Shown piece by piece: positions 3,001 to 64,000 of a stretch of 64,000 nt of DNA. Source of the stretch: Nymphaea colorata (Eukaryota > Streptophyta > Magnoliopsida > Nymphaeales > Nymphaeaceae). Each line of letters starts with the position of its first letter. Positions within the stretch are counted from its first letter, which is position 1. The DNA is taken from contig NC_045138.2 of the NCBI RefSeq assembly GCF_008831285.2, positions 34,156,769-34,220,768 of the forward strand. The letters run 5' to 3'. Below the pieces are notes generated by a model, which worked only from the letters and a program-made list of their open reading frames with translations, made no database searches and had not been told where the DNA came from. A program made the translations under genes and the position numbers.

Positions 3001-3383
3001 GCAACCCCAAAGAAATTGTCACTTGAGTAGCGCAAGAGGCAATTTTCTTCCCAAACCACACCAGCTTTGAAGTTGGCGCACAACAGGAGGATCAGAGAAC
3101 CAGCAATTGCTGCACAACTGCGGCATTCATCGGCCGAGACATCTATGTGACACTGCACCAGGCCATAGACTTGGTCCGGCTCCTTGCCCACCGTGGTGTT
3201 GTAAAAGAAGCCAGGAAGGGAGGAGGCATTGGCTGTGAGAGAGGCCACGAGGGTCTTGAGGTTTTTCTCGAAGGTGGCTGTGTAGGCGGTTGGAGAGGTG
3301 GGGCAGGAACTGAGCTGGGCCTTGGCAACGTGAAAGAGATGAAAGAGAATTGCAAGGAACTTGATGCCTGTAATGCCATCCAT
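1..3383 (-). CDS. CRK-A: cysteine-rich receptor-like kinase, 3' part outside the window
   Basis: Surface receptor kinase of the DUF26 family, predicted at the plasma membrane. Exons read on the minus strand: 2585-3383 (signal peptide and two Gnk2/DUF26 domains), 2142-2249 (transmembrane), 1301-1473 (juxtamembrane and glycine loop [11 protein letters not shown]), 951-1161 (ATP lysine in IAVKRLS, start of kinase), and 1-181 ([13 protein letters not shown] and DFGMA, running off the window). The ATG at 3383 opens a hydrophobic leader ending in AKAQ. DUF26 cysteine patterns C-x8-C-x2-C are seen in [13 protein letters not shown] and [13 protein letters not shown]. The activation segment and last two exons lie to the left and are not seen. 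It is the near twin of CRK-B: exon 4 differs by only about three bases, the ectodomain by much more. I see no break in the part present. The family call is firm; ligand and pathway are unknown. Confidence 0.9.
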
Positions 3384-10700: not shown

Positions 10701-13700
10701 GAGACTTCTTCTTGCAATTTAATTAGTCGGTGGGTCATGCGGACCTTACCTTGTAATAGAAAAAGAAAAACCTGTAGAAGATCGGTGGAAATTTACTTCT
10801 ATGAGCGTCCTAATTATGAACCATTAGAGTTGGGGGTTATGCCCCAGCATTGTTGTATGAAGAAAGTGTATTGGCTTATCATGAACCCTTAGAGTTCGGG
10901 GTTTGAGTGAGCTGCTTCGCGAGCTTTGTAAGAATTTGCTTGTGAGAGTCCTTTGTTGTAAGCGGGTGATCATCTAACTAATAACGTAAGTTTATGGATG
11001 TCAAAACATTTCTGTATGCATCTTTCACCCACCATAGAAGATAGAGAGAGAGAGAGAGGGAGGGAAAACATAAACACCTAGAAATGATAACATATAAACA
11101 GTGTGGAATTTGTACCATTGAGAAAGGTGTCAAGGCTTTTGTTGGGGAGATACTCATAAATGAGCAGCACTTCCTCCTCCTCCGTGCAACACCCCAAAAG
11201 CCTTACCAAGTTCTTGTGTTGAAGATTTCCTATCAGTTTAACCTCATTCTTGAACTCCCTTATGCCTTGGCCCGAATATTGGGAAAGCCTCTTGACTGCT
11301 ATTTCCTGTCCACTGGGGAGAATACCCTGAGAAGAAAAACTCAAGTATTTCAACCATGTTAGACTACTTTGAACCTAACATTTATTTGGTAATTAGTAAT
11401 TAAACTATGGACCACTTAATTAAGTACCTTGTAGACGGGACCAAATCCACCCTGGCCGAGTTTGTTCAACTCTGAAAAGTTATCTGTGGCTGCTTGAACC
11501 GTCCTAAGTCTTACCATTGCCACTTCGTAGTTTGTCCCATGCTGGTAATTCTGCCCGTTTACTTCAAGCAAGGATGTCTCCCTTTCATATCTCACTTTCT
11601 CTGTTCATCGTGAAAAATGCTAATTTGTCATTTCAACGCAAATCGGGGTAAAATGAAAAAAACGAAAGAAAGAAGGAAAGAGTGCGTGAAAGATTGAAAG
11701 AAACAAGTAGAAATCAAGATTCTATAAAAAAAAAAAAAAGTGGTGTATATATATATATATATGAGCTAATTATTGAGACGCTGATCTTGACACTTGAACC
11801 TATCTGGGTTTATATTTTACAAATCCACCGGTAATCAGATCGTTGAGATTTACAAAGTTAGATTGTAGTTTCATTTAAAGTATTGGTGAAACTCAACTGT
11901 TTTAAAAGAAGAAGTAAGCAACGGCCATAATAAACACCATTCGGAAATTTTGGAGACACTCTACGAATGTGCATTTATTGATTTGACTGTCCATGGCGTT
12001 CGTTTGATGAGGTTCATGTCTTGGGTAAGTATGGGCTTTTGAATAAGGTTGAAGCATTTCAAATCTATGCCTTCAAAAAAGTGAACATTTAATAGTGAAC
12101 GTGATTAGTTTTCTTAGTGATTTTGATTTCATGCATGTAGCTCAGACTTGTATGATCATGGTACGTTTGATATGTACAAATTTGTTGGATCTGGACATAA
12201 CTCTGCTACCAATTACAAGGAATTTGGACCTGGATATAGCTCACCTACAAATGACACATGCTGTCCAAATCCAAATTATCAATATTGCATCCGAAGAAAA
12301 TCCAATAGAGTCCGGCATCCCAAATATTTTTTTAATAAAAAAATTAATAGAGCTTGCCTAATCAAATCTTGATAACTGATTAACCAAAACCAATTCACTA
12401 AGTGAACCAACAATACACAAACACTAAATAATGAACAACTAGACTACTAGAGAAATACAATGAAAAATAACAAAGAGCCACGCTAAAAGAGGGTAACTAA
12501 CTTGTATTCACTTATCTTGAGGGGCGGTGTTGCGCAATCAACGTGAAAGGGTCCGAATTTTTTTTTTCCATTTTCGTTATTAAATGTTAATAAAAGTATT
12601 TCTGGCTGGTGTTGGAACTTAGAATGAGCAATAATTCTGTAGGAGGGATCTTAATTTAAAATTATGAGATAAGGTCAGCAAATTGTTTACCCATGTGTTT
12701 CCTTGCTCGAACGATCAATAGGATACAAGCTGCCAACAGACCGCCTCCTATGGTGCTTAGGATCGTCATAATTCTCCAAAAACCTCTTCCACTGTTCCCT
12801 GCAATTGATTTTGAAATTACTCCCATAAGGCAAAGATTAGTGGAAAAACTCGGACTAAAATTTAAAGGTGGGACACATCAAACTGTACTGAAGAGAGGAC
12901 GGTAGCGTGCACCTGACGGATTATCCAGAGGTAAATGAGGCAGTGGCCCCGGAGAGATCGGCCCATTAGCCGCCGGGGGCTGCAACAGCGTCGGCTTTGA
13001 AAACTTTCCGAAGAATGGGTAGACCTCGTATCTCAGAACACAACTTCCAGACAAAACTCTAGCCCCCTGTTTATGTATGCAACAAGATAAAATGGAATTT
13101 ACAGAGTTGTTCAAACACAAACGGCAGGCAGCAGGCGACAAGTCTCTTGTGCACTGCACCAGCCCATAGACCGTCACGTTGTCTGCGTAGGGAACGGCAT
13201 CGGTGGCGTAGGACAAGGAAGACTTGTTGGTGGCAGCCAATCCGGTGAGCTTGCTGATTAAGGATAGCACAATTGATCTGAACTGCGAAGGATTCGAGAT
13301 GCCTTTGTCGTTCTGCACAGAGTGTCTGGGGACATCTGCTACCCCAAAGAAATGTTCACTTGAGTAGCGCAAGAGGCAATTTTCTTGCCAACACATAGCA
13401 GTTTTGAAGGTTCTGCACGACCCGGTGATCTGAGAGGTGGCAACTGCTGCGCAACTGCGGCATTCATCGGCCGAGACATCTGCATGACACTGCACAAGGC
13501 CATAGACTTGGTCCGGGCTATTGCCCTCCGTGGTGTTGTAAAAGAAGCCAGGAAGGGAGGCGGCATTGGCTGCGATAGAGGCCAGGAGGCTTTTGAGGTT
13601 TTTCTCGAAGGTGGCTGTGTAGGTGGTTGGGGAGCTGGGGCAGGAACAGATGCCCTGGGCGTTGGCAACGTGGAAGAGACGGAAGAGAATTACAAGGAAC

Positions 13701-13723
13701 TTGATGCCTGTAATCTCAACCAT
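7713..13723 (-). CDS. CRK-B: cysteine-rich receptor-like kinase, complete
   Basis: Complete seven-exon gene for a 663-residue receptor kinase: exons 12913-13723, 12691-12798, 11428-11600, 11116-11326, 9937-10174, 8910-9063 and 7713-8009, summing to 1992 nt. Residues 1-22 are a signal peptide; two DUF26 domains lie at about 28-245 ([26 protein letters not shown]); the membrane helix is near 279-299. The kinase has [36 protein letters not shown] and GYMAPEYAM, so all catalytic residues of an active RD kinase are present. Exon 3 is 173 bp against 122-146 in the other array members, and exons 5 and 6 are 238 and 154 rather than 241 and 151. It is the duplicate of CRK-A. The C-terminus ends VAPR. 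The ATG at 13723 is the only start that supplies the leader. Confidence 0.93.
11745..11762. repeat. (TA)n microsatellite in CRK-B intron
   Basis: A short TA run following a poly-A tract, within the intron between the transmembrane and juxtamembrane exons of CRK-B. It is absent at the matching place in CRK-A. Confidence 0.8.
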
Positions 13724-32919: not shown

Positions 32920-35900
32920 TCAACTCATTTTGCTTCTCCCTCCCAATGATCCGACACTAGAAGGGGCTGCAAGTGTCATTGAGGTGTTGCTGAGCATGAG
33001 AACCACTCGAGACATTGTTGGTCTTTCTGTTGCATTTTCTTGGACGCATAGTAGGCCCACATGAATGCATCTTAATATTTCATTTTTTTGCAGTGGCTCT
33101 GGCATCCTTTGATCTACCAGTTCTAGTGCTCTGTTTTCTCTCCAGAGCCTCCACACCTGCACGATAGGAATCCAAAGTACCAATATGTGAAATCAATTTG
33201 GGTAACTTTTCAAACTACCCTTGACTCAGACTTGGGCTTAGATCGACAAAATTCTGGTGCTTGATTTAGCAAATCGTGTACTTACATAACCAACAATATC
33301 ACCAGAATAATCTGCTCGATAGAATGCTGCGTTTCTTTCGCCAGTAACAATCTCCAACAACAAGACTCCAAAGCTAAAAATATCTGATTTAGTAGAGAAT
33401 TGACCTTTCATAGCATACTCAGGTGACATATACCCACTGTAGGAGCCAGAAACTCAATTAGTAACATAAACTTTATTGTTTGCAAAGTTGGCATGTCCAA
33501 ATAACTATAAACTGCTAAGGAAACACAACGACAACTTACTATGTTCCAACAATTTTGCTTGTGTTGCCATGTGTTTGTTCCATCCCAAGAAGCCTTGCCA
33601 GTCCAAAGTCGGATATTTTAGCGTTCATATCTTCATCTAACAAGATGTTGCTTGCTTTCAAGTCCCTGTGTATAACCCTTAGCCTAGAGTCTTCGTGAAG
33701 ATACAAAATGCCTCTTGCTATTCCTGCAATGATCTTAAAACGTGTCGCCCAGTCCAGCAGATCCCTTTTTGATGCACGCCCTGTTGATAGTAAGATGATG
33801 TTACCAAAGGCATGATGAGGAGGATAACTTTTTGGAAGAACATCAATTTCACTGCTTTAACATAGCTACCTATAAATGACTTGCAAATCACCTTCGCTGA
33901 CTATAAATGACTTGCAAGAGGAATTCGTGGCAAACCAAAATATCAACAAACAAAACATTCTTACGAGTAATGACAAGAAAATATGGATAATCAAGTTGAT
34001 GTAACAAAATGAATGCAGGATAATGACAGTTGAAAGCAGATAAATACTAAGGTAACTTACCAAATAGAAAATTGTCTAGGCTTTTGTTAGGCACATATTC
34101 ATAGACAAGTATTTTCTCGTCTTGTTCACAGCAACAACCAAGAAGCCTAACCAAGTTCCTATGTTGAAGTTTGGCGACCAATGCTACCTCATTTTTGAAT
34201 TCAGTGACTCCATGCGTAGAATTCATAGAAAGTTTTTTTACTGCAATTATTTGACCATCTGGTAGCTCGCCCTATCCAACAGCTAAAAGACGTTCAGTGA
34301 GCCATCAAGCAACAGGAAAGTCAAGGTAGAGAAAAGATATTCAAATAGTTGGAGAACTACCTTGTACACTGGGCCATAGCCACCTTCTCCAAGTTTGTTT
34401 GCCCCAGTGAAGTTGTTGGTGGCAACTTTAATAGAATTCAAGTCATAAATCATTGATCGAATGCCTTCCATGCCACTTGTATCTGCACATAGATTTCATA
34501 TAATATGTAAGAAGTTATTGATACAGAATGATGCTTTTGTGTTTTATAGAAAATCCTTCTCTACAAATCGAGGTAGGCAATTATGCAAATTTTGTCAATT
34601 CTGGAATGATCAAAATGTTCAACTTGGAGCTGCTTCTGGTGGGACTTTCTTCAAGATGATCGTTTGAATTTCCACCATGTCATGAGAAGATATTGAACGC
34701 ATGATCGCAACATGCAAATGTAGCACCTTCAATATTGTCCTCCCAAGCAGCTCAAATACTTGGCAAATTCCGCTTAAGGATTTCTTGCAATTAGAAGGGA
34801 GGGAGTATCCCATTGGGTATCAGACACCTATATGGCTATATCTATAGATATTTGCAATCAAACCAAGTCCCTTTGTATTCTCAATTTTGCAAAAGCATAC
34901 CCAGCTTCCATCACCAGCCTAAAGAGGGCATTTTGTTCACTGAAGCGCACAGAGTCCATGAAACACACAACGATGCAAACATGGGACATGTAGAACAAGC
35001 CCTTTGAAATGCCATTATGGCGAGTAATCGAGGAACGCTGATGAAGCAGAGAATCCATTTGTTAGGAAGCAAACACAGCTCGGAGAGGATCAGCAACAGG
35101 ACGTTCCTTCCTGGAACACCAAGAACAAGGTGCAAGAAACGGATATCCCATTCCGCAACCAGAGACAAACGCCCTTAAGTATTTCTTTAAGTTGGGCTAA
35201 CTGACTGTAGGCATCATATGTGTACCACAACGCCCATTATCTCCTTTGCAAAAGCTATTCGCACAATGGTCAGATCAACACGAATTATCAAGTATCTCCA
35301 TTTAGGCAGAAAAACTTTTGCAGAAAGAACTTTCTTTCCAGGTGGACAATACATACACATTTAGAAAGAAATGTCTGATGTTAGTCAAAGTGGCCCTACA
35401 TATGTTTCTATTTTCCCCATCTCTTTGCATATGAATTGAGGTGAAGATTTGACACTTTAAACAGAGGAGGAATCTAAAATTGGCTCCAATTCACTAAAGA
35501 TTTCTAACCAAGAAAGATCTTGTCAACAGGGGCAGCATATGTGATATGTTTTCTTTGCTAACAAGGTCTGATCATGTGCAGGATTCTTGGGGGATCTCGT
35601 GTTAATGGCAGAAAACTTGTCGCATCTGTCGCACGACACCACACAAAAAAGACCATCCCTGATCAATATTGATAAGGAAAGGGCGATGGTTCAAGTTCGA
35701 GAATGGTGGCAGGGCCCTTTGGTATGTATAACCTGCACTAGTTAACTAAACCCCCAAATAGTATCATCTAACTTTAACAAATTTCTGAAGTTGGTTACCT
35801 GGTGTACCCTGACGCCGACTCTTCCTCCTCTTAAAGAAGCATACCAAGAAAATGCACAACAGCAGCAGCAGAAATACGGAGACTGACGTGCCCAGGATCA

Positions 35901-36887
35901 CCGCAGTCTTCGAGGAATCCCCACCAGATACTTCACACGGAGAACACGAAATGGACAACAATTGAGAAGAAAAATGAATGATAACAAGCTATTTTCTTCC
36001 GTTTCTCAAACATGGAAGAACGGAAAACAGAAATGGAGAGTGGAGCAGAGAGGATGCACAGGATTAGTACCAGGAAAATTGTCCGGAGTTGAGGGAGTCG
36101 TAGACTGGTTAGCTGGTGGTGGTGGTGGTGAAGAAGCCGGCCGTGCCGGCGCCGGAGTTAAGCTTCCATAGAAAGGGTAGATCTCGTATCTTATCACACA
36201 GCTAGGGGACAGAATCCTGGCACTCTCTCTGTCTGAGCAACACTGCCAGATGGTAGTAATGGAAGTCTTTAAACACGAGTCGCAGGATTTCAATGATAAG
36301 TCTCCTGTGCACTCGACCAGACCGTACAGAGTGATGTTATCTGTATACCAAACATAACCAGTCGCATACATGAGGGTTGAGTTTTTAGTGGTGGCTGACA
36401 TACTGAGGTTGTTGAAGAAGGACCGCAGAAGTTGTTTAAATTGTACGGGGTTGGGGATGCTATCTCCGTCCACATAACTGTTTTTGGACTCGTCTATGAT
36501 CCCGAAGAAATTGAAGCTGGTGTAGCGTAAGAGGCAATTGTCGAACCATATGACGGCCGCCTTGCTGTTGGGGCATAGTTCTAGGATCTGAGAGGCAGCG
36601 GAGTCCGCACAGGTGCTGCAGTCACCGGCGGAGATATCTTTGTAGCACTGCACCAGGCCATGAACTTGGTCGGCGCCCTTGCCGACGCTAGTGTTGTAGA
36701 AGCCTGTGAAGGAAGCGTTTTCTCTGAGAGACGCCAAGAGACGGTTCAGGTTGTTTTCGTAGGTGCTGTTGCTGGTATAGTTTAGAGCAGTGGTGAGGCA
36801 GTCGTGGTAGGGGACCTGAGCGCAGATGACGTGGAAGAAAAAGAAGAGAACTGGTAGGGATTTTAGGTAATGGAGACAAGCAGCCAT
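32920..36887 (-). CDS. CRK-E: cysteine-rich receptor-like kinase, complete with shortened C-tail
   Basis: Exons 36071-36887, 35799-35930, 34361-34482, 34061-34271, 33540-33780, 33286-33436 and 32920-33156 join to 1911 nt, 636 residues. The start is the ATG at 36887; the two codons before it are GTG. Leader ends CAQV. DUF26 motifs [13 protein letters not shown] and [14 protein letters not shown] Pro-rich stalk precedes the membrane helix at about 280-302. The kinase has [10 protein letters not shown] (Tyr where most CRKs have Phe), [31 protein letters not shown] and GYMSPEYAM. The frame stops at 32920-32922, but the same frame stays open for 29 more codons beyond that TGA, ending LEAGYY. That stretch matches the C-terminal LEAR tail of paralogues. 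So a late nonsense change has trimmed about 30 residues outside the kinase core; the protein is probably still made. Confidence 0.9.
33870..33917 (+). repeat. 17-bp direct repeat, period 31, in CRK-E intron
   Basis: CTATAAATGACTTGCAA occurs at 33870-33886 and again at 33901-33917, separated by 14 bases, inside the intron between the HRDLK and ATP-lysine exons. Confidence 0.8.
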
Positions 36888-38738: not shown

Positions 38739-41885
<3,147 letters not shown>

Positions 41886-44207
41886 CACCGTGCGGTTGGA
41901 GATGCTTTCAGGCTCGCAGCATCGCAGGGGAAAGAGCAGGCGCTTCTTTTATGGTCGATCTTCTCAGCTCTTCTTGTCGACTTCGTCAAACTGAGTTTTA
42001 GTCCTTCCAGATTTTTGGTAGTTGGGTCCAGTCAGCACATGCGAAGGTCATACAGCCCCAAGCTGATTGCTGCCTTACTTGCCTTCTTCTTTCATTTCCA
42101 GTCCCATGGCTGGAGGTTGTTCGTTCCCATGGAAGCGGATTCGGAGGAGGAGAGACGAAAATTAGAGCATCAGTCTGATGCCTTAATCTCTTGAAAGATT
42201 GTCAATCGTTTGCCTCTAATGGTTGTTCCAAGCACAATAATTGATGGTTCAATTGGTTTGATGGGTACCTAAGAGCAAATAAATCGATGGTTGTATTTGG
42301 AGGGAAGGATGGGGAACTGCATGCGGATGTGAACAGGTGGATGTTTTTCCCCAAAATTTTGCAGGGACCACATACTTTGCATTTACGTTGAAGACGGGGG
42401 AAAAAGAGAAGGCAGAAGGGTCTTCTTCGTGTTCCTTTGTACAGTGCGACTGCTAAACTTTGCCACCCATCAGGGAGAAACACCAACACAAGCCGCCATA
42501 TAAGGAACACACTTTCGAAAGAATTTGTATGTACTGGAACGCTACCTGAATTACAGATGAGGTTGAATCTATACCGCAAAACCAAATCGAAATCTAATTG
42601 CCGACATCTATACAAATAAAGCTCGGGAGGCCCGGGGGGTTCGATTGGATTTGGATCAATTCGTTGTAATCGGATTTAATTTAGAGAATGGGTTGGAAGG
42701 ATTCAAAGAAGATAAATTCTTGAAAAGAAGAGCGAATTCTTAATTTCTTATCCATCCACGACATTGTGGGGGCAACTTTTATAAATGAAATGAAGACGGA
42801 GATGGGGACTCAATTGAGAACCTGAAAGCACCTTTGTCCACAAAGGCAACATTAATGATGTTGTTGAATGTTAAGTATGATGCCGCTACTTCTCCAACAA
42901 GCCTGCATTGTGCCCCACTCTATGTAATGTAATGTAACGACCATAGTACCCTACCCTGTTTATTATTTTTCCTCCGTATTAACTTCCGAGTCAAAGACGC
43001 GTTCACGCACATCGCCCTCGACCTCGTGGCCCGTCACGACAACTATCTACATAACCACCACAGCTCTCTCAATCTCCCCGTCCTCCTCCTTTGCTTTCCT
43101 TCTTTATGTTATTCGTTGATTGGTGACACGTCTTAATTCATTGTCACCACATACATTTTGATTTGAATGGATTTCTGGGCACATCTCTCTCTTTCTCCGT
43201 TTCCTAACAAAATTCTCCAATTACCTGCCCTCTTCTTTCTTTCTTTTCTATGATATAAGAAAACACGAAAAGAAATGCTCAACACGCGTGCTTCCTTTCA
43301 TTTAAACATGTCTATTCTCAATTACTTTGCAAAAAATAGTTGTTTAATGAAAAAGGTAGTTACTGCCCACCCTTGCGATTAGGACGTATGAGATGACTAG
43401 GAGTTAATGGCTATAATAACCAAAGTATAGACTAAACTTTTGTAAATTACAAGGAGATAATATTAGCCTATAAGAACCGAAGCTGACTCGTTCGTTGAAC
43501 AAAACAGATGAATTATGTTTGAGTTGTTCATTCAATTCAAATATTTTAGGGAGATTAGTCTAACCTTACCCTCCACAAAAGTTCAAGCTCTTATGGGAAA
43601 CGTAAAAACAGTGCCGTCCCACTTGGGGCTACCAGACCCTCCGCAGAAAGTCTGTTCAGGACATTCTTGTCCACTTTGAAACGCCCAACCTCCACCGCTT
43701 ATCCACGCATCAGCATCGTACTGGAGAGAGTCGTCCAGGACAAACATGTTACAGTTCCCGTTTCATTTTGAACGTTGAAAGAAAAGGGCATGACGGCTGA
43801 CCGTCGATCGAGACCCTTCACCCACAACGACTAAAAGGCGGACCTCGTTATATACGGCATACTAGTTTATTAATTTTTCGTGCGTCAGTGAAAATACGAT
43901 TTTTTTTTTTTTAAAATGAAAACAAAAAACCCTACAAAGTGCATAATTTTTTTTAATTGTTAACTACGGATGACGGTGCAGGCAATTCAATCTTACACAA
44001 AAAGTCACTGCATTTCATTGTCTCGCGACTACCAGAAAGATACGTAGAAGGGCATTTAGTCCACCACAGTCACAGATTGGGACCATTTATTGGCGACTCT
44101 TATTCTAGCACACAAGGAGAGGGACATTCAAGGACGGAAGCACGCATTTTACATCATATACGGCAGCTGGACCTTGTCTCCGAGCTCGTTCGTCGTCGTT
44201 GTTGTCC
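41886..44207. other. Intergenic between CRK-F promoter and gene G; no kinase exons found
   Basis: I scanned this stretch for the remaining five CRK exons expected for gene G ([29 protein letters not shown]) and saw none on either strand. It holds AT-rich sequence, a 137-codon minus frame at 42202-42615 without resemblance to known proteins, and a short open frame at 43583-43747 listed separately. Confidence 0.6.
43583..43747 (-). CDS. Possible small gene: 54-residue Gly/Trp-rich open frame
   Basis: ATG at 43747, stop at 43583-43585. The product is 54 residues, acidic at the start (LDDSLQYDADAW) and rich in Gly, Trp and Cys in the middle (SGGGWAF, CGGSGSPKWDG). A TATATAA box lies on the same strand at 43848-43854, about 95 bases upstream of the ATG. 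No signal peptide or known motif is visible. It could equally be an exon remnant or chance. The composition looks more protein-like than the surrounding AT-rich DNA, which is the only reason for listing it. Confidence 0.2.
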   Translation of the reverse strand: MFVLDDSLQYDADAWISGGGWAFQSGQECPEQTFCGGSGSPKWDGTVFTFPIRA

Positions 44208-45582
44208 TCATTCCGAGGCAATTAAGTGGCTCTTGGAGCTCGACTGCTGCAGCAATCTTCTGTCTTCGATTCTCCTGTTTTTCCTGCTCACAAGGACGTG
44301 GCAGATGGCGCTCACCAGTAGGGAGGTTGTTGCAGAGACTGATGCAGCGATCACGACAGCATCTCTCGATATTGAGCATATACACCTATTACATCCTTCA
44401 AACATACAAAATCAAATATGAATGTCAAATGAGTCATCACAATTAAGGCGGGCGGTTGAGTGTAACGTTAGCAAGTAGTCTTTGATTAACAAAATAAATG
44501 TTGAGAAGACTCCGCTCTCAGTTGAGGCTGAGCGTAAATCCTCTTAAACAACCTCTTTTACTGGATAACACGGTCTCTGCTTTCATGGGGGTTTTTCAGT
44601 CAAAAACAGGTTCCCATGTAATCGAAAGAAGAAAGCGAAAAAACAGAGGCGAAACTTTCAACGAAATCATCCTCTTAACGAACGTATCTCTGTTTTTTTT
44701 TTTTTTTTTTCTCCAAAAAAATTTCCTCTTTGTTTGTTGCAAGAAAGATAAAACGATAGCAGAAAAATGCTCACCAGTAACAACAACAGAAGAATTCGTC
44801 GGAGCTCCACCCGATGTGGAGGAAGGCGGTGGTGGCAGCGTCACCAGCGAAGTCGACAAGTTCCCGAAGAAGGGGTATATCTCGTACCTTATAACGCAGC
44901 TGCCGGACAGAATTCTAGCCCCTCGTTTGTCGGAGCAACACTGAGAGATGGCACGCACGGAGCTCTTCAAACAAGAATTGCAGAAGTTGAACGAGAGATC
45001 CCTCGTGCACTCTGCGAGGCAATAGAGGGTGACGTTGTCGGTGTACTTAACACTTTCAGTGGCGTACATGTGGCCGGAGATATTGGTGGTAGCTGACTTA
45101 ATGAGATTGTCGAACAAGACCTGAACGATTGGCTTGAATCTTGCAGGGTTGGACATGCTGACGGTGTTCACGAGAGCCATTTTCGATGCGTCGACGATCC
45201 CAAAGAAATTGAAGCTGCTGTAGCGCAGGAGACAGTCGTCGAACCATATGACGCCCATCCGCTTGCCCGGGCACACTTGGACGATCTGAGAGGCAGCAGA
45301 GGCCGCACAACTGCGGCAGTCGTCGGCGGAGATGTCTCCGTGGCACTGCACCAGGCCATGGACTTGCTCGGGGCTCTGGCCTACCGTGGTATTGTAGAAG
45401 CCACGAGAGACCGATGATTTGGCTGCCAGGGAGGCCAAGAGGGCGTTCAGATTGCGCTCGAAGCTGCTGTTGGTGTTGTAACTGAGAGCAGAGATGGGGC
45501 AACTGTAATAAGGACTCTGAGCGCTACTCAGGCGCAAGAAAGAGGGAAACAGAAAAATTGTGATGTACCAAATGGAAATCAT
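44208..45582 (-). CDS. Gene G: kinase-less double-DUF26 membrane protein (PDLP-like architecture)
   Basis: Exon 1 44775-45582 and exon 2 44208-44395 join in frame to 996 nt, 331 residues. Residues 1-21 are a signal peptide (ending SSAQ). Two DUF26 domains follow (CHGDISADDCRSC, CTRDLSFNFCNSC), closest to CRK-F and CRK-E, then a Pro/Ser stalk and a membrane helix at about 282-305. Exon 2 opens at AAG|GATG, matching the CRK-F acceptor AAAG|GATC. Where paralogues splice to the juxtamembrane exon, this exon has CAG|TCG instead of AG|GT and runs on to a TGA after a 26-residue basic, Ser-rich tail. No kinase exon follows. Double DUF26 plus helix plus short tail is the plan of plasmodesmata-located proteins. 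An extra Cys occurs in LYCLAEC (usual LYGLVEC). If intron 1 is retained, a 328-residue form without the helix results. It may be a decoy, a co-receptor or a decaying CRK. Confidence 0.72.
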
Positions 45583-46300
45583 TTCAAGAGTGCGATGATA
45601 ATGGATTCGGGACTCGAGGAAGAAACCAGAGCAGGAGGGAAGGTTCAGGTGCTGATAGAGGGAGTACTGTAAAGCTCGTTTCTCGGTTGATACTTTGACT
45701 GGTGGTGCTGATGATTTTCGTAGCTCTTTAACCGCTACAAAAAAATTTCAATTTCAAGATTAAGACAGCAACCATATTTTGTTGTTTGAGATATCTATTC
45801 CATATATCTGCCTGTGTGGGACCGAAGTAGATAGTCAGAAAGACCATGGCTTGTGAACACGCACGGATCATTAGTCGGACGCACTGAAGCTGCACCTTTA
45901 TGCTAAAATGGTTTCACTTTTACGGAAAGGCAAATGACTTCTTTCTCTGTTTTTTTTTTTTTTTCTCTGTATTTTTCTGAGGGCATTAGGGTTAGGCAGA
46001 TTGCCACTTGTCATATCAAAAGGCGGCCAATCTTTGGGATTTAGGTCATGTGCACAGAAATTACCGTTGAGGAGATTTGCATCGACATTTTTCATCCAAA
46101 ACGATGTGTACGGCGAGGGTAAAATTAACCCGCAAAAAAATCTCTCTCTTGAGTTTGGACCTTTTACCGTGGGGAATTTCACCCGCAACGCAGAATCTCC
46201 TCTCTGGCTGCCTCTCCTCTCTCGCTCTCTGGTTCCTCTACGCCGATCATCGCTGCAGCTATTGAGCTCCACCACCACATTCCGGCCGTGAAAAGAAGGG
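45583..46300. other. Upstream region of gene G
   Basis: Contains the promoter side of gene G, with a TTGACT box at 45695-45700, and a poly-T tract near 45950. Overlapping frames on both strands at 45.9-46.29 kb resemble no known protein; the plus-strand one could once have led into the PPR fragment that follows. Confidence 0.5.
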
Positions 46301-46800
46301 TTGGAGCTCCATCTTGCATGGTCGTTGTTAGGTGGCGTGGCCTTCGTCGGTACTACGATGCCTAAATATATGTACGGGAAATTTCGGCTTCCAGACAGTG
46401 CATGCCGGGTTTTTGAAGAAATCCCTCAAAGGAAAGCTTTCTCCTGGAACATTTTGATGATGGGTTTTGCTGACTGCGAAGGGATCACAGACGCACTCCA
46501 ATTGTTCGGCGAAATGCCTGAACTGGAGCGAGATGAAGTTTCCTGGAACACCATCATCGCAGGATGAGTTCAGAATGGTCGAGGTGAGGAAGGCCTAAAA
46601 CTATTCATCCGTATGTTTTGTTTTCTGATCATATTCCTAATTCGTTTACCTTAGTCAGCGCCCTAAATTCTTGTTCGAGTTCGTGTTGGATTGGCCTTGT
46701 TCACAAATTCATTCTTTTTCCCTTAAACTGGACGCTTTGGTTGATGACCATTCGATCCAGTGTGCGCTTGTAAGTATGTACATAAAACTTTGTGATATTA
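46301..46800 (+). pseudogene. Pentatricopeptide-repeat (PPR, PLS type) gene fragment, broken
   Basis: The plus strand encodes recognisable PPR repeats: SACRVFEEIPQRKAFSWNIL, then GFADCEGITDALQLFGEMP, then DEVSWNTIIAG. An in-frame TGA at 46565-46567 follows; beyond it the same family sequence continues as VQNGRGEEGLKLFIRM and, after a frame change, PNSFTLVSALNSCSS. PPR proteins of this type act in organelle RNA editing and processing and usually have ten or more repeats; only about four survive, with no start, no organelle-targeting leader and no E/DYW end. It interrupts the array between G and CRK-H on the opposite strand. Confidence 0.8.
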
Positions 46801-48872: not shown

Positions 48873-51800
48873 TTAGTTCACGGAGGTTTTTGGTCCTGGT
48901 GGGTCGCCCCATACACTGAAGGTGGCATTGCCAGGAGTAGACTGAGCTGACCCAGCCGCACCCACCTCAGACTCGCCGATTGAGATGTCTGTTTCGGCAG
49001 TGCCTTTCATGGCAAACCAGAAGGCGGGAGGGAGGGGGAGAGGGAGGACCGTCGATGCGTAACTGAGCATGAGAACGACCGCCGACATTGTTGGCCTCGC
49101 CTCTGCATCTTCTTGAACGCATAACAAGCCCACATGGATGCATCTCAGCGCCTCGCTTCCCTGCAGTGAACCCAATAATGCCTCATCCACCATCTCCAGT
49201 GCTCTGTTTTCATTCCAAAGACTCCACGCCTGCTTGTTGCCCATAATAAGGGAAAAAAACAGAGTCATATCTTCAGAATGAAAAGATACTTAGTCTAAAT
49301 TGAATACTGTTCTATGGCGTCTCTTGTTTTGGAATCAGAATTAGATGCCAAGAGTGCCCGGATTTCCATGTTGGCAGGACACAATCTTCTATCCAGGCAG
49401 GGAGACGGTGCAGAAGTGTGAAGCAAGCAGGCACCCAAGGTGCCCAAATTATAAGGAGGCGAAGAATCTCCAAGACGGGAAACTCTGGCAAGAAAAGATA
49501 TTGCTTACATAGGCTGAAAGATCTTGACAACGATCAGATTGGTAGAAAGAATTGTTACTGCGCCCGCTTACGATCTCCAGCAGCAACACGCCGAAACTGA
49601 AAGCATCTGATCTAGTAGAGAATCGTCCCTGCATTGCATACTCGGGCGACATATATCCACTGCATGTACCAGTGAGGATGCCACCCGATCATTCTCTAAT
49701 AAGTTAAATAACTGACTTGATCTTGCCTTGCGTGCATCCGACAACTACTGACCTAAACCAAAATATCTTAGTTGAGATTAATAAAAATCAAAATAGCTTA
49801 CTATGTTCCTGCAATTCGGCTCGTGTTTCCCCTGGTTTGATCCACTCCAACAATCTTTGCTGTCCCAAAGTCTGAAATCTTTGGATTCAATTCCTTATCC
49901 AACAGGATGTTGCTTGCCTTGAGATCCCTGTGAATGACCTTGGGCATTGAGTCTTCATGGAGATAGACAAGTCCCCTCGCAATTCCCAGTATGATCTTAA
50001 ATCGTGTTCCCCAATCCAGTTGCTTGCCTACCGTTCTCTTCCCTTTCAATGACGAAAAAAATGGAGCAAACAGTTATGATTCTGCACTGTCATGGCTGAA
50101 AGCAACTAATTCCCATCTCATTATCTTCTTCCATTGACATGGGGAAATGCTCATAATATTGATAAGTTCCTTCTTGTGCCACGCTGAACCATGGCATGAC
50201 CGGTGCCTGTTTGAAATATTTCTCACTTGAAGGTAAAAACGCCCTTTTTCATGTGTTCCTAAAGCATGATTTCGTCAAAATATAGCTATCATAAAGGGAA
50301 TGGTGCTACGAGAAAGGAACTCCCTCTCTCTCCCCCTCTCTCTCTCTCTTGAAATCATAGTCATAAAAAACGTGTTTTGTTTGAAAAAAAAAAAACGTGA
50401 ACTGTTTAAAATTTAAAAAAATGTTCTTTAACGTTAAAAATTAAAAAAAACCTGAAACAACATGAGAAACTTATTGTTCCATGTATTGTTTTCTTTTTTT
50501 TTATGTTATTCATTTCTGTCATGTTCTTTTAATGCCAAACCTTTTTTTTCATTTTTTATTTTTTATTTGTTGGAATTCTACTTAGTTTTTGATGTATGTG
50601 TCATTGGTTTCTCATTTATTTTATTTTTTTTTAATAAAATTTACTGTATTTTTCTCGTTTTTTTTTTCAAGCTCATCCTATTATACTTGAGAAAACCTCT
50701 CCGCTTGAAACTGAGAAAGTTTTTTGTGACTATGTTTGCCAAATCGATGAAAGGAAATGTTGTAACCTCCCTGCCATCGACTCTGCTGATCATTGGCTGG
50801 AAATCGTGGCTTCCAATGATCATGTCGTCGACACATTAACCTACCACTTAGCTAGGGTCACTATTATTTGCCAATGAGCAAAGTGGAGAAGTCACTTACC
50901 GAATAAAACAGTATCAAGGCTTCTGTTATGGACGTATTCATAGATGAGCATCTTTTCTCCTCCTTCTAAACAACAACCCCGAAGCCTAACCAAATTCCTG
51001 TGCTGAAGTTTTGCAATCAATTGCACCTCGTTCTTGAATTCCGAGGCTCCTTGTGCGGAACTCTTGGACAGCCTTTTTACGGCAATTTCTTCGCCATTGG
51101 GCAGCATTCCCTGTAATGGTTCATAACTCGCTCATTTTCTTCCCTCCTCCTAGTTGAGAAGAAACAGTAACTTTGATCAATGTTTCGGAAAGTCACCTTG
51201 TAGACAGGACCGAATCCGCCTTCTCCGAGCTTATTTTCTTCTGCAAAATCTTGTGTAGCAGCTTTCAGAGAAGCCAGGTCAAAAATCAAGGGCTCCCCAC
51301 TTCCCTTTTCTTCCTCACCTGCACATAATTTTAACTATGTTTGAATGTCCACACTTAGATCGGAGCTCAATTAATTAGCCGATAGATACTAAAGTAAGTT
51401 TGGTTTCTGCAGAAGCTCGTGGACTTAAATTGCGGAAAGTTTTCAAGGAAATGAGGTTAAACCGAGGTAAGTTTATCTATTACTTTGGTGGAAGTGTTCT
51501 GGAAAAGCAGCTAACAGACCTAAGTTCTGAAGATTACGTTAACTGTTACTGAGTTGAAAAAATCATCAGACCAATGCGTGCTAACATCTAGAAAATGTAA
51601 TTTGGAACTTTGTCTCAGAGAACAGGATCACGTGTCTTATCTGGGGAGTGAGGCCCCTCATAGGACTGCGTTATTTTTTTTTTATATTCCCACGATACGG
51701 AAACGATAAAAAGCAGCATCATTTTCTTTTCTTTCTTTTTTTGTCGTCTTTGCTATGGACATATAAAATGTTTCTCTCTGCTTCTTTCCGACCTTATCAC

Positions 51801-53525
51801 CACAATGTGGCTCGTAATAGACGTTCACTCATTTCTCATTTCTCATTTCTCTTTGTGATTGGTAAAGGAAAAAAAAAAAAAAAAAGTTCGGTTTGGTTGG
51901 GACAACACCCTCAAAATTGGTCTTCTAGTGAAATCACTAATCTTATTAAATAAATAGTTTCGAAACCTGGTTTGTGCGTTCGAATGACAAGACATAAAAA
52001 TGGATTTTCATTTTTCGAAACATAATTTTATTTGGATAATAAACATGAGTTGATATATAGTAAATACAGATATTACTAAAAACTCTAGTTTTATGTGAAA
52101 AAACTGTTAGATGTTTTTGGGGCCTTTTGAAAAACAAAAACATAGACGGGGTTGGCACGGCAAGGGTGCCAACGACAAAGCCCTCCATTGATTAGAGTTA
52201 AGGCCGAGGTGACTCGCCCGAATAAATTGGATCAGAGTAGTCCCCTCGCCTACGACGTGAACGGTAGTAGCATGCTGATAAAAGTAGGGTCAGAAAGGCT
52301 TTCATGGCTGACCAACCTTGACCTTAGCAACTAAAATGGCTGATAAACAGTTGTTTTCTTACCTTGGAAATTGCCCGCTTTTGTCCATCCATCCCTGTGC
52401 CTCCTCCGATAAAGTATGTACAAGACACAGTGCGCGCACAGAGTTGCCACCAAGAAAGACACCCCAATCCCAACCAGCAGCTTTGCCCATCGCCTCCCAT
52501 GAGATGTTTCATTATCTAAAATATTCAAAGCACCCATCGCAGAACAGAAAAAAAGTAAGAAACATGCTTTCTTCAAGATATTGGGATCTTTAATCAACCT
52601 ATCCACCCAAATGGAATCCCCAAAAAAACAAATAAAAGAAAAAGTGAGATTAGACATGTAAATTTTGTTCATATGGTTTAAGGATTGAACATGTTTTCCA
52701 GCACACACATGAAAGGTTCGGTGACTCACCGGTAGATGGTGGTGCTGCCGGTGAAGAAACAGACGCCGCACTAGTGCTTAGAGGATACGTCTCACGTCTC
52801 ACAATACAGCTTCCTGTTAAAAACCGAGCGCCCAAACTGTGACTGCAACATTTAGAGAGAGAAGCCACTCCGTTCATCAGGCAATAATTGCAGTCTTGGA
52901 GTGACAGGTCTCTCGTGCATTGTACTAATCCGTAGACGGTCGTGGAGGAACTGGAGTTTGTATAGGTGATGCTGCCCGTGTTATACATGAGACTCGACCC
53001 GTTCGATCTAGTGGCCGATTGTGTGAGGTTGCGCAGCAGTGAAACAACCTGTTGATCGAACGCTTTTGGGGTACGGAGAGGGTCAGTGTTCATTAGAGTC
53101 ATCTCGTTCTGTGAATCAACGAGACCAAAGAAAGATTCGTTGGAGTAGCGCAGGAGGCAGTGGACCGTCCACAGGACAGCTGATTTCTTGTTGGCGCAGA
53201 TCTGGAGAGTTAGTCTCCCGGCAACGGCTATGCAGTTCCGGCAATCATCGGGAGTGGCGTCTCCCCGGCAGAGGGCAAGGCCCATGAGTTGGTCCGGGAA
53301 GCTCCCCTTGTATTCCCTGCTGAAGCCATTGTTGAAGAAGGCGGTTGCTGCCAAGGAGGAGATCAGACTCTCCAGGTTGGCTTGGTAGGTGCTGTTAGTT
53401 GCGTACGTCGCGTTGCCTGGGCAGCTGTAGTATGGATCCTGGCCCCTGCTATGCCGAAGAATCAGCAGGAGGAGGAGGAGTACGATGGAACGTCGGATGG
53501 CCTTGCCAGTCCCTCCCATCTTCAT
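48873..53525 (-). CDS. CRK-H: cysteine-rich receptor-like kinase, complete
   Basis: Exons 52730-53525, 52363-52515, 51197-51318, 50900-51110, 49802-50042, 49509-49659 and 48873-49229 join to 2031 nt, 676 residues. I start at the ATG at 53525 ([12 protein letters not shown]), whose basic stretch precedes a long Leu-rich leader; a frame extending further upstream would mask the leader. DUF26 motifs [13 protein letters not shown] and [13 protein letters not shown]. The membrane exon is the longest in the array (153 bp), with the helix at about 278-300. The kinase has [40 protein letters not shown] and GYMSPEYAM. The C-terminus ends PKTSVN and lacks the LEAR/IEAR motif that closes CRK-C, D and F. 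It is the most upstream member of the array in transcription order, and the first to diverge in the ectodomain by eye. Confidence 0.92.
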
Positions 53526-58175: not shown

Positions 58176-61100
58176 TCATGATTCCAAAAAGACAACTTCC
58201 TCATCCTCACACTTCCTAATCTTAATATTCATTACTTCATTAGTGAGGGAAATAATGTCACAGCACTGTCTTCGAGGTGCCTGCAACTGGAAAGGAGGGA
58301 AAAGAAGAAAATGAGGAATGCCAAAATAGAAAATAATGGATTACTAACAAAACTGCCTAAATCTGATGGTCTTGCAGGATAATCCACATCACAGGAAAGA
58401 TCAACTACAAAAGGTTGAGTAAAATAAATAGCAGTTACCTGCTTAGTGTCTAAATCCAGTTCTGTGGACAGCACACGGACATATTTCAAATCCCAGGGTG
58501 AAAATTTATTTGAATAGCAACCCACTCCTGAGCTTCTGCTGTAATTGCTCTCAATGCCAGTCTCACCAGCAAGTACACTCTCAAAAAAGAAAATGGCAGG
58601 TCTGTTACATGGATTTCTTGGTAACTCCCTTGTATTGAACATATAAGGAACAGATGAAGCATTTTTTTGTCCTCTGCGCCATGGCATGAATGTCCGCAAC
58701 AAGGGAAGAAGGTCTGGAACTAGTTGAATACTATTATAGATCTGAACACTGTAACCCCATGAAATAGAAACAGTCCAGGCCTTTGAATTTTCATAGCAAA
58801 TAGTTTGTTGAAGAATCCTCCCTGAGTCAGCTTTAACAGCTTCAAACAAATGCTCTAATGCATGCAATCTACTTAATTTGGGGAAGACAGGGGCCAAAAT
58901 ATCAAGATGATGAAGTGTTACTAAAGGGGCCAAAGGATGTGCAGCCAGCATTCCAAATGCATCTCCTCGAAAGTCAACCTGGCAAAATGTATTTATTGTA
59001 ACAGGTAAACACACACACACACACACACACACAGAGAGAGAAAGAAAGAGAGAGAAAATGGGTGAAAGCACTTAATGACCCAGATATATACTCAATGCAT
59101 TTTCCCCAACCACTTGAGCGCATTGTCAAATGATTAATTACTCAATTGGACTCTCACCGTAGTAATGACTCGATTGGACTCTCACTGTAGTAATTGTAAC
59201 CAATGTGCAATCGGGGAGCAAATTTTTCCTATTTCTTTTCATGTTTGAGGATGGAAACCATGAAATGGCACCTGAACAATCTCTAAATGGAAGCAACTGT
59301 ATGATATACTGCAATTAAGATGTATACATGAGCTATGGTCATAATTAATTCAACAAATCAACAGATGAAGTCATCGATTTAAGATAGGCATTCATAAGCC
59401 ACAGGATGCTAACTGGGGCATCCACATGCCAGAATCATACAGGATTATTTCAATAAACGAACCAAGATGCTAAATTTGCTTCTCCTTTTTACGATTAATT
59501 TGGGCCATATGACTCATTTTAATAACTCTCATTTTTTAAACACGCAACATTTAGAAATTTTCTGTGTGTCCTTCTGTAACTGATCACAGATATAGTTTAT
59601 AAGACAGAAGTAGAAATTCTTATGGTTATGTAGAGCAGCAGTTCTTCAGTTCTTCTAAACAGACAACATAAGAGATATGACCTGCAAATATGTTTCCCAG
59701 TACTTCACTAGGTCAGAATGAAGTGCACACATCAAAAGATATATTTGCAAATATCTTCCTTTCTCTGGCTTAACATAAACAAATTTTTTGCAGAATCAAA
59801 CATAGAACTGTACCTACATTTCTCCACTAACTCAGAGTTCCTACAGGTTGCTCCATTTGATGTTCACCAAAACCAAATAATAACTAGTTCTGTAAAAAAA
59901 TCAAATCATTACACGTAGCTAATTGAAACAAAGACTTGAGGGCTTCTCTGTCTTTTCCAGGTATTCACAGGAGACGGCATTTGTTTCGCAGAAAGTGCCC
60001 ACAATAGCAACAGAGGCATTCCTAGACAGCTCCAGCAAATCAAAGACTGGACATCAGAAAGAGAACGCTGTGGTTGGCGAATAAACTATCCATCAGAAAC
60101 TACTTGTGACTCTCTTTGCCCCAACAGACTACACTCGCTCTCCCCCTTTCCCCATCTCTTCATCCTCTTCCTTTTAGGATAGTTTCTTCTGTTTCCACAT
60201 ATACAAATAAAAGTCCATTGATGGAATCAAGAAACAGGGCACCCATCCTTCTAATGCCCTCTCAGTTCTCAGGCAGCCCAGTATCAGAAAAAGATGTCCC
60301 TAAAACTGTCATAGAGACAAACGAGAAAGCACTGATCAAATGCTTTCCAAGCGCAGGTGCTAAATTTTATTTATTTTTCTTGATCTACACTTGATCCAGT
60401 CGATGCTTTGTTAAGAATTAATCTATATTTTGTTTGGTCGCCGTAATATCCTTTTCATGTGAGTATTTTGGAAGTGTGCTCATATTAATGCTTTATTATT
60501 CACCATCTTTCAATACTTGAATGCCTCATTTTCCTTATGGCAGTTTTTCAATTTATTCCATGAATCCTGTGCTTTTCTTTTGCTTTGTCATAGCTTTAGA
60601 AGCAATCTTCTGATTTGTCTTGGTTCTTGAACAGCCTTATGTAAGGGGTTCAAAGTCTAGAGCCCTAGCAAATTAGCAATACATACACATGTTTTTGTTG
60701 ACAAAGATTTCTTTTTTAGACAGGTTCAATTCCATTCACATATGTGAATACCACTTACAGATAATAGACGTATACAGTCCTCAGTGTATCACATTTTTTC
60801 TAAAGACACCTTACCTACCGAAAACGTAAAGAATGATCTGCAAAAGCCCACTCAGCCAGAAACAGCTTCCAATCATAGTTTACTAGGGGCCAAGACAAAT
60901 AATACTCGCAGTACTAACATACAGCAAAAGTAAATCCAATACGGCGATACCAATTAGTTTGAAGAGTATTCTCAAATATGGAAGAGCCAGGAATACTGCA
61001 TTAAAGGGTACATGTAGCATTAACTGAACAGCTGCTGTTTTAATGAGATCGCCATCAAGAACAGCACAATATTAATGATCTTCACACTAGCATTAACTGA

Positions 61101-62203
61101 AATTGAAGTTGACATAAATCGTCTCCTAACCAAGAGAAAACAGAATCCTCAAAAATGAATAAAAGTTTAAACGAATGCTTGTACTTGCCAAGCAGCATCG
61201 CTATTACCATCATCGTCATGCAAATCAACAAAAGTACCTCACCAAAATATTATTCGCCAAACACTAGCAGGGGAAAAAAAAATCTACAGAAGGTCATCGA
61301 GAAGAAGAGAAAATTTTCGGAAAAATCAATAAGGAAAAGAAAACGGGCAAGAGCAGAAACTTGACCAACCTGATGGAATCCCCGTTCGTGGGTAAGCCCA
61401 ACGCCGAGCTCCGCCAGGCATGCGAACACCCTGGCATCGCTGCCGTAGAGATGGGCGTACCGCACCAGGCAAGAGTCGAACACCCGCGCCAGCGCCGCTG
61501 CAAGTCGGTGACTGATGGCGAATCCGCCGCCGCCGAACCCCATGTCGAACGAGTTCACCCTGTTCTGGTCGACGTTCTCCGAAGACTCCCCAACGTAGAA
61601 CCACATCTCATGATCGTACTTCCGCAGCACCCTCACCAGGTTGTCCACGAAAAACACTGTGTCGTCGTCTCCGAAGACGAACCACCGGACGTCCGGCAGG
61701 CCGAGGCGGACAGTCTCGGCGACGATCCTGGCTACTCGGATAGCAGACCGGAGGCCCTTCCGGTAGGTGTAGGGAAAGCGCGAAGTGTCCTCGGAGACGC
61801 GAACGGTAGGGAGGGAAGCGTCCGTTTGAGGGAAGGAGGAGTTAAGGGGGCGGTCAAGCCAGACGAAGCCCCTGGTCTCGCCAGGGCGCCACCATGCGCG
61901 GACGTAGTCCCGACGGCGAGGCCAGCTGCTAGCCGAGGAGGCGATGCCGAAGACGAGGTGGCGCGTCTCTGTAGGCGGTGATTCGGGAAGAATCGGGCGG
62001 TGGGCGAGGTGGAGGGAGGAGAGGCAGCGAGGGGAAAGGCCGCAGGGATGGGTGGAGAGGACGACGATGGCGAGGTAGGCAATCCAGAAGGAGCACGAGA
62101 GGAACGCGAGTCGCTTCACAAGACGGAGCGTGAGGCCTCCGGCGGTGAAAGGGTGGGGAGTCGTCATTGCTCGAGCAAAACGGCCTGCTGAAGAGGAGAA
62201 CAT
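58176..62203 (-). CDS. GT31/DUF604 (Fringe-like) glycosyltransferase, complete
   Basis: Three exons, 61370-62203, 58439-58978 and 58176-58280, join to 1479 nt, 492 residues. It is a type II membrane protein: a short cytoplasmic N-terminus, a signal anchor at about residues 33-49, then a lumenal catalytic domain, so Golgi location is inferred. The DxD metal and nucleotide-sugar site is WFVFGDDDT (DDD at 179-181), followed by GFGGGGFAIS (222-231) and GSDARVFACLAELGVGLTHE. Exon 2 continues DFRGDAFGMLAAHPLAPLV. The last exon gives APRRQCCDI and IRKC, the Cys-rich end typical of plant DUF604 proteins. The ATG at 62203 is the first in frame (the codon three positions before is GTG); a second ATG at 62167 would give 480 residues. 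Acceptor and sugar are not known for this plant subfamily. It is unrelated to the CRK array and marks its flank. The 2.4-kb first intron carries the (GT)n tract. Confidence 0.9.
59009..59056. repeat. (AC)n(GA)n microsatellite next to a splice acceptor
   Basis: About 25 bp of AC followed by about 23 bp of GA-rich repeat. On the gene strand this is a CT-then-GT tract lying 31 bases before the exon 2 acceptor of the glycosyltransferase, in the position of a polypyrimidine tract. Confidence 0.9.
59141..59196 (+). repeat. 28-bp tandem duplication in glycosyltransferase intron
   Basis: Unit 59141-59168 (CTCAATTGGACTCTCACCGT...) is followed at once by 59169-59196 with only a few substitutions. It lies inside the first intron. 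Confidence 0.9.
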
Positions 62204-64000
62204 ACCACACACGGTTCAAACGAGAAAGGCGACAGGACAGAGAGAGGGAGAGAGAGACACACACACAGAGAGAGAGCACCCCCATGAAAGAGGCGGAGTA
62301 AATGGTACCGTTCAAAAGAAAGGGAAGAGACAACAGTAGTACGCCATGTGGGAACAGAACACCCCGCAGATCACTCCGTCTGTCTGTGCTTCGGAGTTGG
62401 ACCTTCCTCGTCGCGTTGCCCCTCTCTTCCTTGCACATTCGGTCAAGGTCTCGTTTTGCTTATTAAAGAAGCGTTTTGCGTCACGGAGACCGGAGAACGC
62501 GGGCGCCCGCTCTTTTTAATGGAGAGAGAATCATTTTCAATATTCTGTGAAAGTGGGCCTCGCCTTCTTTTCCTTTCTCCAACTCCATGACTATGATGAT
62601 CGCCATTCATGATGATGCCGCCATCAACTCCGCTCGTTCTTAACACGGCCTTCAGTTCAGTCGTCCATTTTACTTTCATCGTCTTGGAAAATTTTACAGG
62701 GACACGCTCAAGTGCTCAACTTTTGAGAACACACGCTTTAAGCTGCTAAACGTAGGAAAATTTAAGACCTAGGTGCTCTTGTGCACGCATATGACTAATG
62801 GAGTTGCGAGAAGCCCTACTTCCTTGGTATTTCATTTCAGATCTCACCCTGTTATCCTGAAGCGCGACGTTCCAAGGGATCACTTTGTTTGAAATAATGA
62901 AGGAACAAAGACCTTCCAACGCAAGTTAGAACCGTTCCTTCAAGTGCACGCAACCAGAAACAAAAAGTTACTACACATGTTAATTTGTTTAATTAAAGCT
63001 ATATGGTATTTACGGTTATTTTCAAACAGTCTTGGCATCGGCACTTATTAACTTAAAGGGAAGGGCTACAGCGTCTGATAATGGCTTTACTGAAACGGTA
63101 TATATTAAGATTTTATGAACTTCTTCAGTCACTGCATTTGTGACTCTACCGTCTCAAGTACGTGTATTATATTCAAATTTTAAAAGCAAGTGTTTTTCTC
63201 TAAAGTACGTTAAAATGGAGGTTTGGATCATTATGATTTGTTGCCTCTTAATTTGTTATTCTTTAGCTTAGATGATAGATAGAAGCAATGCTATCAAAAT
63301 TGAGATGGTAAGTGAATTGGAACAGAAATTAGTAGAGAGAAAATCACAAAGCAAACAAAGTGAAAAAGAAAAAAAGAAAATATAAAGTAAAGTTCCACCA
63401 ATGACTAGAACAAGACAAAAGGGTGGTCTGCATTGATTTACCTCGAGTGGTTGACGCTAATTTTAACTGCAAAAGTTAGATGACTCGAAAGAGTTGGTAT
63501 AGCGGGACGGATGGCAGTCAAGTTTTGAGTTTCTGAAGTGCCACTTATTACTAATTAAGTGTATTTTCTAGAATCAAAGAACATTTATAAGATTTTCTTT
63601 CGAGTGGGTTTTTTTTTTTCTCCTGGCCTTTGAAATATACGCTTTCATTAGCGATCGAACACAAGATGAGGCCTAGTAAAAATAGTCAGTGAGCCCCATT
63701 CTTTTATGTTCATTTCTTCACATTAATACAAGAATCATTGATCTTATGCGTGTGTTTGTGTGAAAAGAACCATTGACTTTAGACAAGCAAAAAAAAAAAT
63801 AAAAATTAAACATTGACCAATACACAATGTTATATCGTTACATTGAATTGCTATAATGGCCATAACGTTCCTCAAACAACAGAAGTACCCCTTCGCAATC
63901 AAAGTGCCCTAAACTTTGTGAACTACGGACAGTGCTTTTGGTGGGGGCACTTAAGCACCTCTTGTTGTCTCTAGAAAGAGAAAGAATATAACAGGAGCGG
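62204..64000. other. Upstream region of the glycosyltransferase gene
   Basis: Immediately upstream of the start, 62236-62275 is a GA/CA-rich stretch on the plus strand, which is a CT-rich leader on the gene strand as is common in plant 5' untranslated regions. Beyond 62.7 kb the DNA is AT-rich; I recognise no gene, RNA or transposon end. A 78-codon minus frame at 62443-62679 is unassigned. Confidence 0.5.

Follow-up and report, generated by a model that had tools for sequence, protein, structure and literature searches.

The window analyzed here, a 64,000-nt stretch of Nymphaea colorata DNA, carries eight DUF26 genes in a tandem array, all on the minus strand and named A to H by rising coordinate. 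In a tblastn scan of the window, an ectodomain was found in all eight. The five kinase blocks were complete in B, C, D, E, F, and H, and three were found in CRK-A before the end of the window; gene G had none. Open reading stretches for kinase exons were listed for all seven array genes other than G. Gene G and the neighbors discussed below are laid out as follows.

32923 to 36887, minus strand: CRK-E, a kinase-bearing neighbor with 53% identity to G, placed with G in one split under both the DNA and the codon likelihoods
38742 to 41885, minus strand: CRK-F, a kinase-bearing neighbor with 58% amino acid identity to G exon 1
41950 to 44207, minus strand: region downstream of G, 2258 bp, with no detectable kinase exon
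44208 to 44395, minus strand: gene G exon 2, 188 nt, encoding the juxtamembrane CNRCIC, the transmembrane helix, a 26-residue basic tail, and the stop
44396 to 44774, minus strand: gene G intron 1, 379 bp, GTGAGC...TTTGAAG, phase 1 (from the splice-site listing)
44775 to 45582, minus strand: gene G exon 1, 808 nt (269 codons and one further base, phase 1), encoding a hydrophobic N terminus, DUF26-A, DUF26-B, and a Pro/Ser/Thr stalk
48876 to 53519, minus strand: CRK-H, a kinase-bearing neighbor upstream of G

The final kinase exon of CRK-E (32923-33192, minus strand) ends earlier than those of F and H, with loss of the C-terminal tail. Between H and G lies a short PPR-repeat fragment (46292-46567, plus strand; PF01535, E value of 1.3e-8), probably a gene remnant. 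Past the last CRK, two open stretches on the minus strand (58235-59071 and 61253-62215) match DUF604, one of them also being Fringe-like, and these are probably a single glycosyltransferase-like gene.

The two exons of G join in phase 1 across a CTG/GTGAGC donor and a TTTGTATGTTTGAAG/GAT acceptor, a phase that agrees with the exon structures modeled for the neighbors. Their 808 nt and 188 nt sum to 996 nt, which is exactly the 332 codons, stop included, given in an earlier note on this DNA. A profile search found two stretches of PF01657 (DUF26) in exon 1 (E value of 4.6e-37), the membrane helix has a mean hydropathy of 2.03, and the final 25 residues of the basic tail include 7 K/R and 3 D/E. 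The earlier description of a protein that keeps its signal peptide, two DUF26 domains, stalk, and membrane helix and ends in a 26-residue basic tail was thus borne out, with the signal peptide being a judgement by eye from the hydrophobic N terminus. An AF2 model of the ectodomain was of moderate confidence (mean pLDDT of 71, pTM of 0.57), and its top five Foldseek matches were PDLP8 and PDLP5 ectodomain chains (E values of 2.1e-17 to 6e-17), a likeness expected for any tandem DUF26 protein. Seven of the eight ectodomains entered the alignment termed A1, the profile search, the structure model, and the protein identities given below; D was left out, its exon end being undefined at that point. 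Four cysteines present in G are absent from E and F, namely, C188 in exon 1 and those of the CNRCIC cluster (44376-44393) just outside the membrane; they could join chains or could reflect drift. A search of viral and prokaryote contigs confirmed no relative of G exon 1, which is unsurprising for a gene of plants. The gene model of G is well formed, and function is likely.

The downstream region held no recognizable trace of a kinase. The best tblastn match to a kinase in the 2258 bp after G scored 20.4 bits, a value equalled by 35 of 200 shuffles; the absence of the five downstream kinase exons, reported previously, was therefore upheld in the sense that none rose above shuffled DNA, and G is the sole such member of the eight. 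Under simulated neutral decay, the same scan found the remnant in 40 of 40 cases at 0.3 substitutions per site, in 7 of 40 at 0.5, and never (0 of 40) at 0.75, 1.0, 1.25, or 1.5 (F, E, H, and C regions). Since the scan is blind at 0.75 substitutions per site and above, very old decay in place is compatible with its null result. Spacing points the other way: the stop of G is 2323 bp from the ATG of F (the other six array gaps are 1855 to 4333 bp), as against 2026 to 4975 bp between the exon 2 donor and the stop in the six array genes with all five kinase blocks. On these distances, deletion or partial duplication is favored over decay in place, and the kinase block of G seems to have been removed rather than merely degraded. 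At the start of intron 2, E and F agree at 19 of 25 positions; the best match to either in 44300-44000 of G was 13 of 25, which 350 of 500 shuffles equalled. The simplest account that we infer for the kinase loss would be either that the segment was deleted or that a partial duplication stopped within exon 2.

The last exon of G was examined for homology with the transmembrane exon of its paralogues. When the 1 kb that follows the G donor was shuffled 400 times with dinucleotides preserved, a comparable transmembrane exon arose in 3 cases and the paralogue score was equalled in none, under criteria that had been fixed only after the exon had been seen. When residues were shuffled within the exon 2 helix and its flanks, the score of the match to F was equalled in 3 of 2,000 trials. 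At the DNA level the exon is poorly conserved (51% identity between G and F over 27 codons), and the real score was equalled by 3 of 500 shuffles in the comparison with F and likewise with A, by 14 with E, 55 with C, 126 with D, 155 with B, and 435 with H. Because the protein-level score together with the required phase and acceptor was rarely matched by shuffles, we regard exon 2 as genuinely homologous to the transmembrane exon of the paralogues on the strength of the protein comparison, the DNA match being weak. The earlier reading of CAG/TCG in this exon as the lost donor did not survive: that site lies 152 nt into exon 2 at a codon boundary, whereas the donors of E and F lie at 132 and 135 nt in phase 1. 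The splice-site listing held no phase-1 GT before the stop in the G exon 2 frame.

Comparison with six paralogues gave exon 1 protein identities of 58% to F and 53% to E. For the five-gene set (A, B, E, F, and G), a codon model placed E and G against F with A and B, ~25 log-likelihood units ahead of the alternatives, and IQ-TREE under three models put the same split ahead by 23 to 31 units. The log likelihoods of the three topologies were -2662.19, -2686.92, and -2686.78 in IQ-TREE and -2661.90, -2686.63, and -2686.49 in our own codon code. The trees gave a less sharp picture: in protein, E, F, and G came together at 89/94, with no order among the three, and in DNA, F joined A and B (91/93). 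All eight array genes were separate from PDLP5 and PDLP8 at 100/100 in a tree that comprised the array and these two PDLPs. These results agree with the earlier note in making E and F the nearest relatives of G, and the placement by a DUF26 tree that it had called for puts G with the array CRKs and away from PDLP5 and PDLP8.

Its further claim of a recent local origin from a CRK was right in part. The CRK relationship stands, since G groups with the array CRKs; "recent" does not, because dS between G and E is 1.53. Pairwise dS values for F-G, G-H, E-H, and F-H ranged from 6.4 to 13.4, which is saturated and unusable as numbers (six of the eight genes entered the pairwise dS work, and all eight entered the trees). 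Judging from a G-E dS of about 1.5 and saturation between G and F, the ectodomain lineage of G is old. A recent origin of the gene lineage is ruled out by dS; this applies to the lineage and not to the date of kinase loss. The adjacent cysteines of DUF26-B described below and the tandem array would fit a putative parent in the variable (beta) CRK clade; the tree covered the array genes and two PDLPs. Elsewhere in the array, the ectodomains of CRK-A and CRK-B (2586-3383 and 12914-13723) are close copies with a dS of 0.15, and their pairwise omega of ~0.90 was the highest among the 15 pairs computed, in keeping with relaxed or diversifying selection.

Codon evolution was modeled on 207 gap-free codons from which the signal peptide and stalk had been trimmed, with five of the eight genes in the topology comparison and omega profile and with all eight in a second codon model. 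The branch omega of G was 0.143, 0.153, and 0.150 on the three five-gene topologies and 0.162 on the eight-gene tree; over the same four trees, the kinase-bearing neighbors gave 0.19 to 0.21 (E) and 0.21 to 0.32 (F). An omega of 1 on the G branch was rejected (2dlnL of 28.55 to 50.55, P values of 9.1e-8 to 1.2e-12). That G lies below the background was significant in the five-gene sets only (2dlnL of 8.3 to 9.4, compared with 2.9 on the eight-gene tree), and the profile on the best five-gene topology accepted values of ~0.08 to 0.25. A model-free count of unique changes at the three codon positions gave 12/116, 11/132, and 25/71 for G, 11/115, 11/132, and 27/73 for E, and 9/113, 5/126, and 15/61 for F, so that G resembles its two kinase-bearing neighbors in this respect as well. 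Where the other seven genes are invariant in amino acid sequence, G keeps 35 of the 36 columns. The codon pattern indicates that constraint on G either still acts or ceased only very recently.

The alternative that withstands this evidence best is that G is a very young pseudogene, in which the kinase was recently deleted and the rest of the gene is still unbroken. Neither a broken frame nor lost codon constraint was found, the frame being intact and omega being 0.14 to 0.16, and simple decay is weakened by the codon constraint; a very recent loss of the kinase stays compatible with it. The omega of the G branch averages the time before and after kinase loss, and the low value may belong to a CRK past. 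The short gap to F fits a deletion, exon 2 is the least conserved part of the gene examined, and a frame can survive some neutral drift: with two indel rates, simulated survival without selection was 13 to 26% at 0.02 substitutions per site, 3.6 to 14% at 0.03, and 0.5 to 4% at 0.05. The same simulation and the omega profile, which rejected a neutral final phase longer than ~5 to 12% of the G branch (the bound varies with the constrained omega assumed), require that any neutral phase be short. Moreover, a recent break inside intron 2 would have left an intron 2 start, and none is left in G, although this argument has no force for a break inside exon 2. We regard a young pseudogene as possible but unlikely.

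In domain order G matches the plasmodesmata-located proteins, as the earlier note had observed: it has two extracellular DUF26 domains, a transmembrane segment, a short tail, and no kinase, with the signal peptide read by eye. PDLP1 to PDLP8 (PDLP5, 6gre; PDLP8, 6grf) have the same parts, signal peptide included, and the PDLP5 and PDLP8 ectodomains share the fold modeled for G. They differ from it, according to the published descriptions, in belonging to an alpha-group lineage, in carrying an Ax3G motif in the transmembrane domain, and in their type of DUF26-B disulfide. The earlier view of PDLPs as an old separate lineage has to be amended: the clade is old, yet PDLPs have been published as CRK derivatives (PMC6368629). 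Ax3G, on the N-terminal side of the transmembrane domain, is reported to be invariant in 491 PDLPs and to be needed for PDLP5 function (PMC7275062). The transmembrane helix of G contains neither Ax3G nor any Gly; within the array the motif occurs in E and F only, and its absence is thus not peculiar to G. In DUF26-B, G has adjacent cysteines (C215-C216) and no cysteine at the strand 1 position, an arrangement described for many CRKs, unlike the bridge from strand 1 to helix 2 of PDLPs (PMC12040379). Across the array, adjacent DUF26-B cysteines without a strand 1 cysteine occur in six of the eight genes (A, B, E, F, G, and H), and CRK-C and CRK-D have, respectively, C140 and C137 in that region without the adjacent pair, which is the PDLP-like pattern. 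A post hoc search also found, in the transmembrane helix of G, a chain in which five small residues follow one another at four-residue intervals, and 42 of 2,000 shuffles reached it; the helix of CRK-H has a chain of four that only 11 of 2,000 shuffles reached. We consider the chain weak and not peculiar to G, since the search was post hoc and the chain in H is the rarer among shuffles.

A true PDLP identity for G is rejected on the tree grouping relative to two PDLPs, the missing Ax3G, and the CRK-type DUF26-B cysteines, and with these three tests against it G is PDLP-like in architecture only. It could still be a working plasmodesmal regulator of the PDLP type, derived from a CRK in a second, separate event. 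The matching domain order, the short cytoplasmic tail, and the match of the ectodomain model to PDLP8 and PDLP5 are what such a protein would show, and targeting of PDLPs has been reported to be independent of a specific transmembrane sequence (PMC7275062). Against these stand the lack of a motif found in all 491 PDLPs of the same report, the grouping of G away from PDLP5 and PDLP8, and a CRK cysteine pattern in place of the PDLP bridge, and we consider a PDLP-type function quite improbable. Very improbable, finally, is a secreted ddCRRSP made by frequent retention of intron 1, with the ectodomain followed by a read-through tail and no exon 2 anchor: the reading frame of exon 1 continues past the donor (stop to stop, it extends to 44599 in intron 1) and repeated origin of ddCRRSPs from CRKs has been published (PMC6368629), but exon 2 is a phase-matched, paralogue-like transmembrane exon that is unexpected by chance, and the splice sites are GT..AG with a GTGAGC donor.

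G has the receptor-like architecture described, no detectable kinase, a place among the CRKs of its own array, and strong purifying selection on its branch. The reading that we prefer, with a probability of about 0.55, is that it is a CRK paralogue, putatively of the variable-clade type, that lost exons 3 to 7 and now serves as a DUF26 receptor-like protein that partners CRKs. The exons would have been lost through a deletion or through a partial tandem duplication that stopped within exon 2, and what was left would be a tandem DUF26 ectodomain anchored in the membrane and followed by a short basic tail. The product would be expressed and functional at present. At the plasma membrane it would enter complexes of CRK ectodomains, where, having no kinase, it would act as a partner or competitor, so that the kinases of its neighbors might be damped or tuned by it. 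The idea of a partner or competitor is drawn by analogy from CRK28, which is reported to self-associate and to pair with CRK29 and whose ectodomain dimers are predicted to be similar to the PDLP5 crystal dimer (PMC12040379). The role of decoy or partner for CRK-E and CRK-F, put forward in the earlier note, is likewise conjectural. A more detailed version, in which the kinase was lost early on the branch of G, the ectodomain is at least as constrained as those of the kinase-bearing neighbors, G tunes CRK-E and CRK-F through its ectodomain and through pairing of small-residue transmembrane helices, and the PDLP-like architecture arose independently of PDLPs, seems to us doubtful.

Loss of the kinase from CRKs has already been published (Vaattovaara 2019). 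PDLPs and ddCRRSPs are described as CRK derivatives that arose by loss of the kinase and/or the membrane region, with an atypical Amborella PDLP cited as an example of loss in two steps (PMC6368629); we set that protein beside G by its published description. For ddCRRSPs of the beta group, the same source gives an origin from vCRKs by partial duplication with loss of the kinase and transmembrane parts, a history like that proposed for G, except that they are without the transmembrane segment that G retains. The Duf26-RLP class, counted across 350 genomes (PMC10834447), comprises proteins with a DUF26 ectodomain and a transmembrane segment but no kinase, as G has, and the Arabidopsis table of a prediction paper gives nine DUF26 receptor-like proteins (PMC9603095). 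Those are classes of domain architecture, whereas G is tied to a specific CRK array, with kinase-bearing CRKs as its closest relatives (within the window and in comparison with two PDLPs only) and with codon constraint on its branch. Among the literature matches listed, there was no functional study of a kinase-less variable-clade CRK protein that retains its transmembrane segment; an effect on nodulation has been reported for a secreted relative, CRRSP1 (PMC12537019). Genes like G may be underreported, since a soybean CRK curation is described as having dropped putative CRKs that lacked a domain (PMC6237359).

G appears to be a new instance of an established route to kinase-free plant receptor proteins, and it offers a concrete, testable case of the passage from receptor kinase to receptor-like protein, adjoining the kinases from which it came. 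If it is functional, it would bear on what distinguishes a plasmodesmal PDLP from other DUF26 membrane proteins, and it would raise the question of whether kinase losses in tandem arrays make built-in competitors of the kinases that remain.
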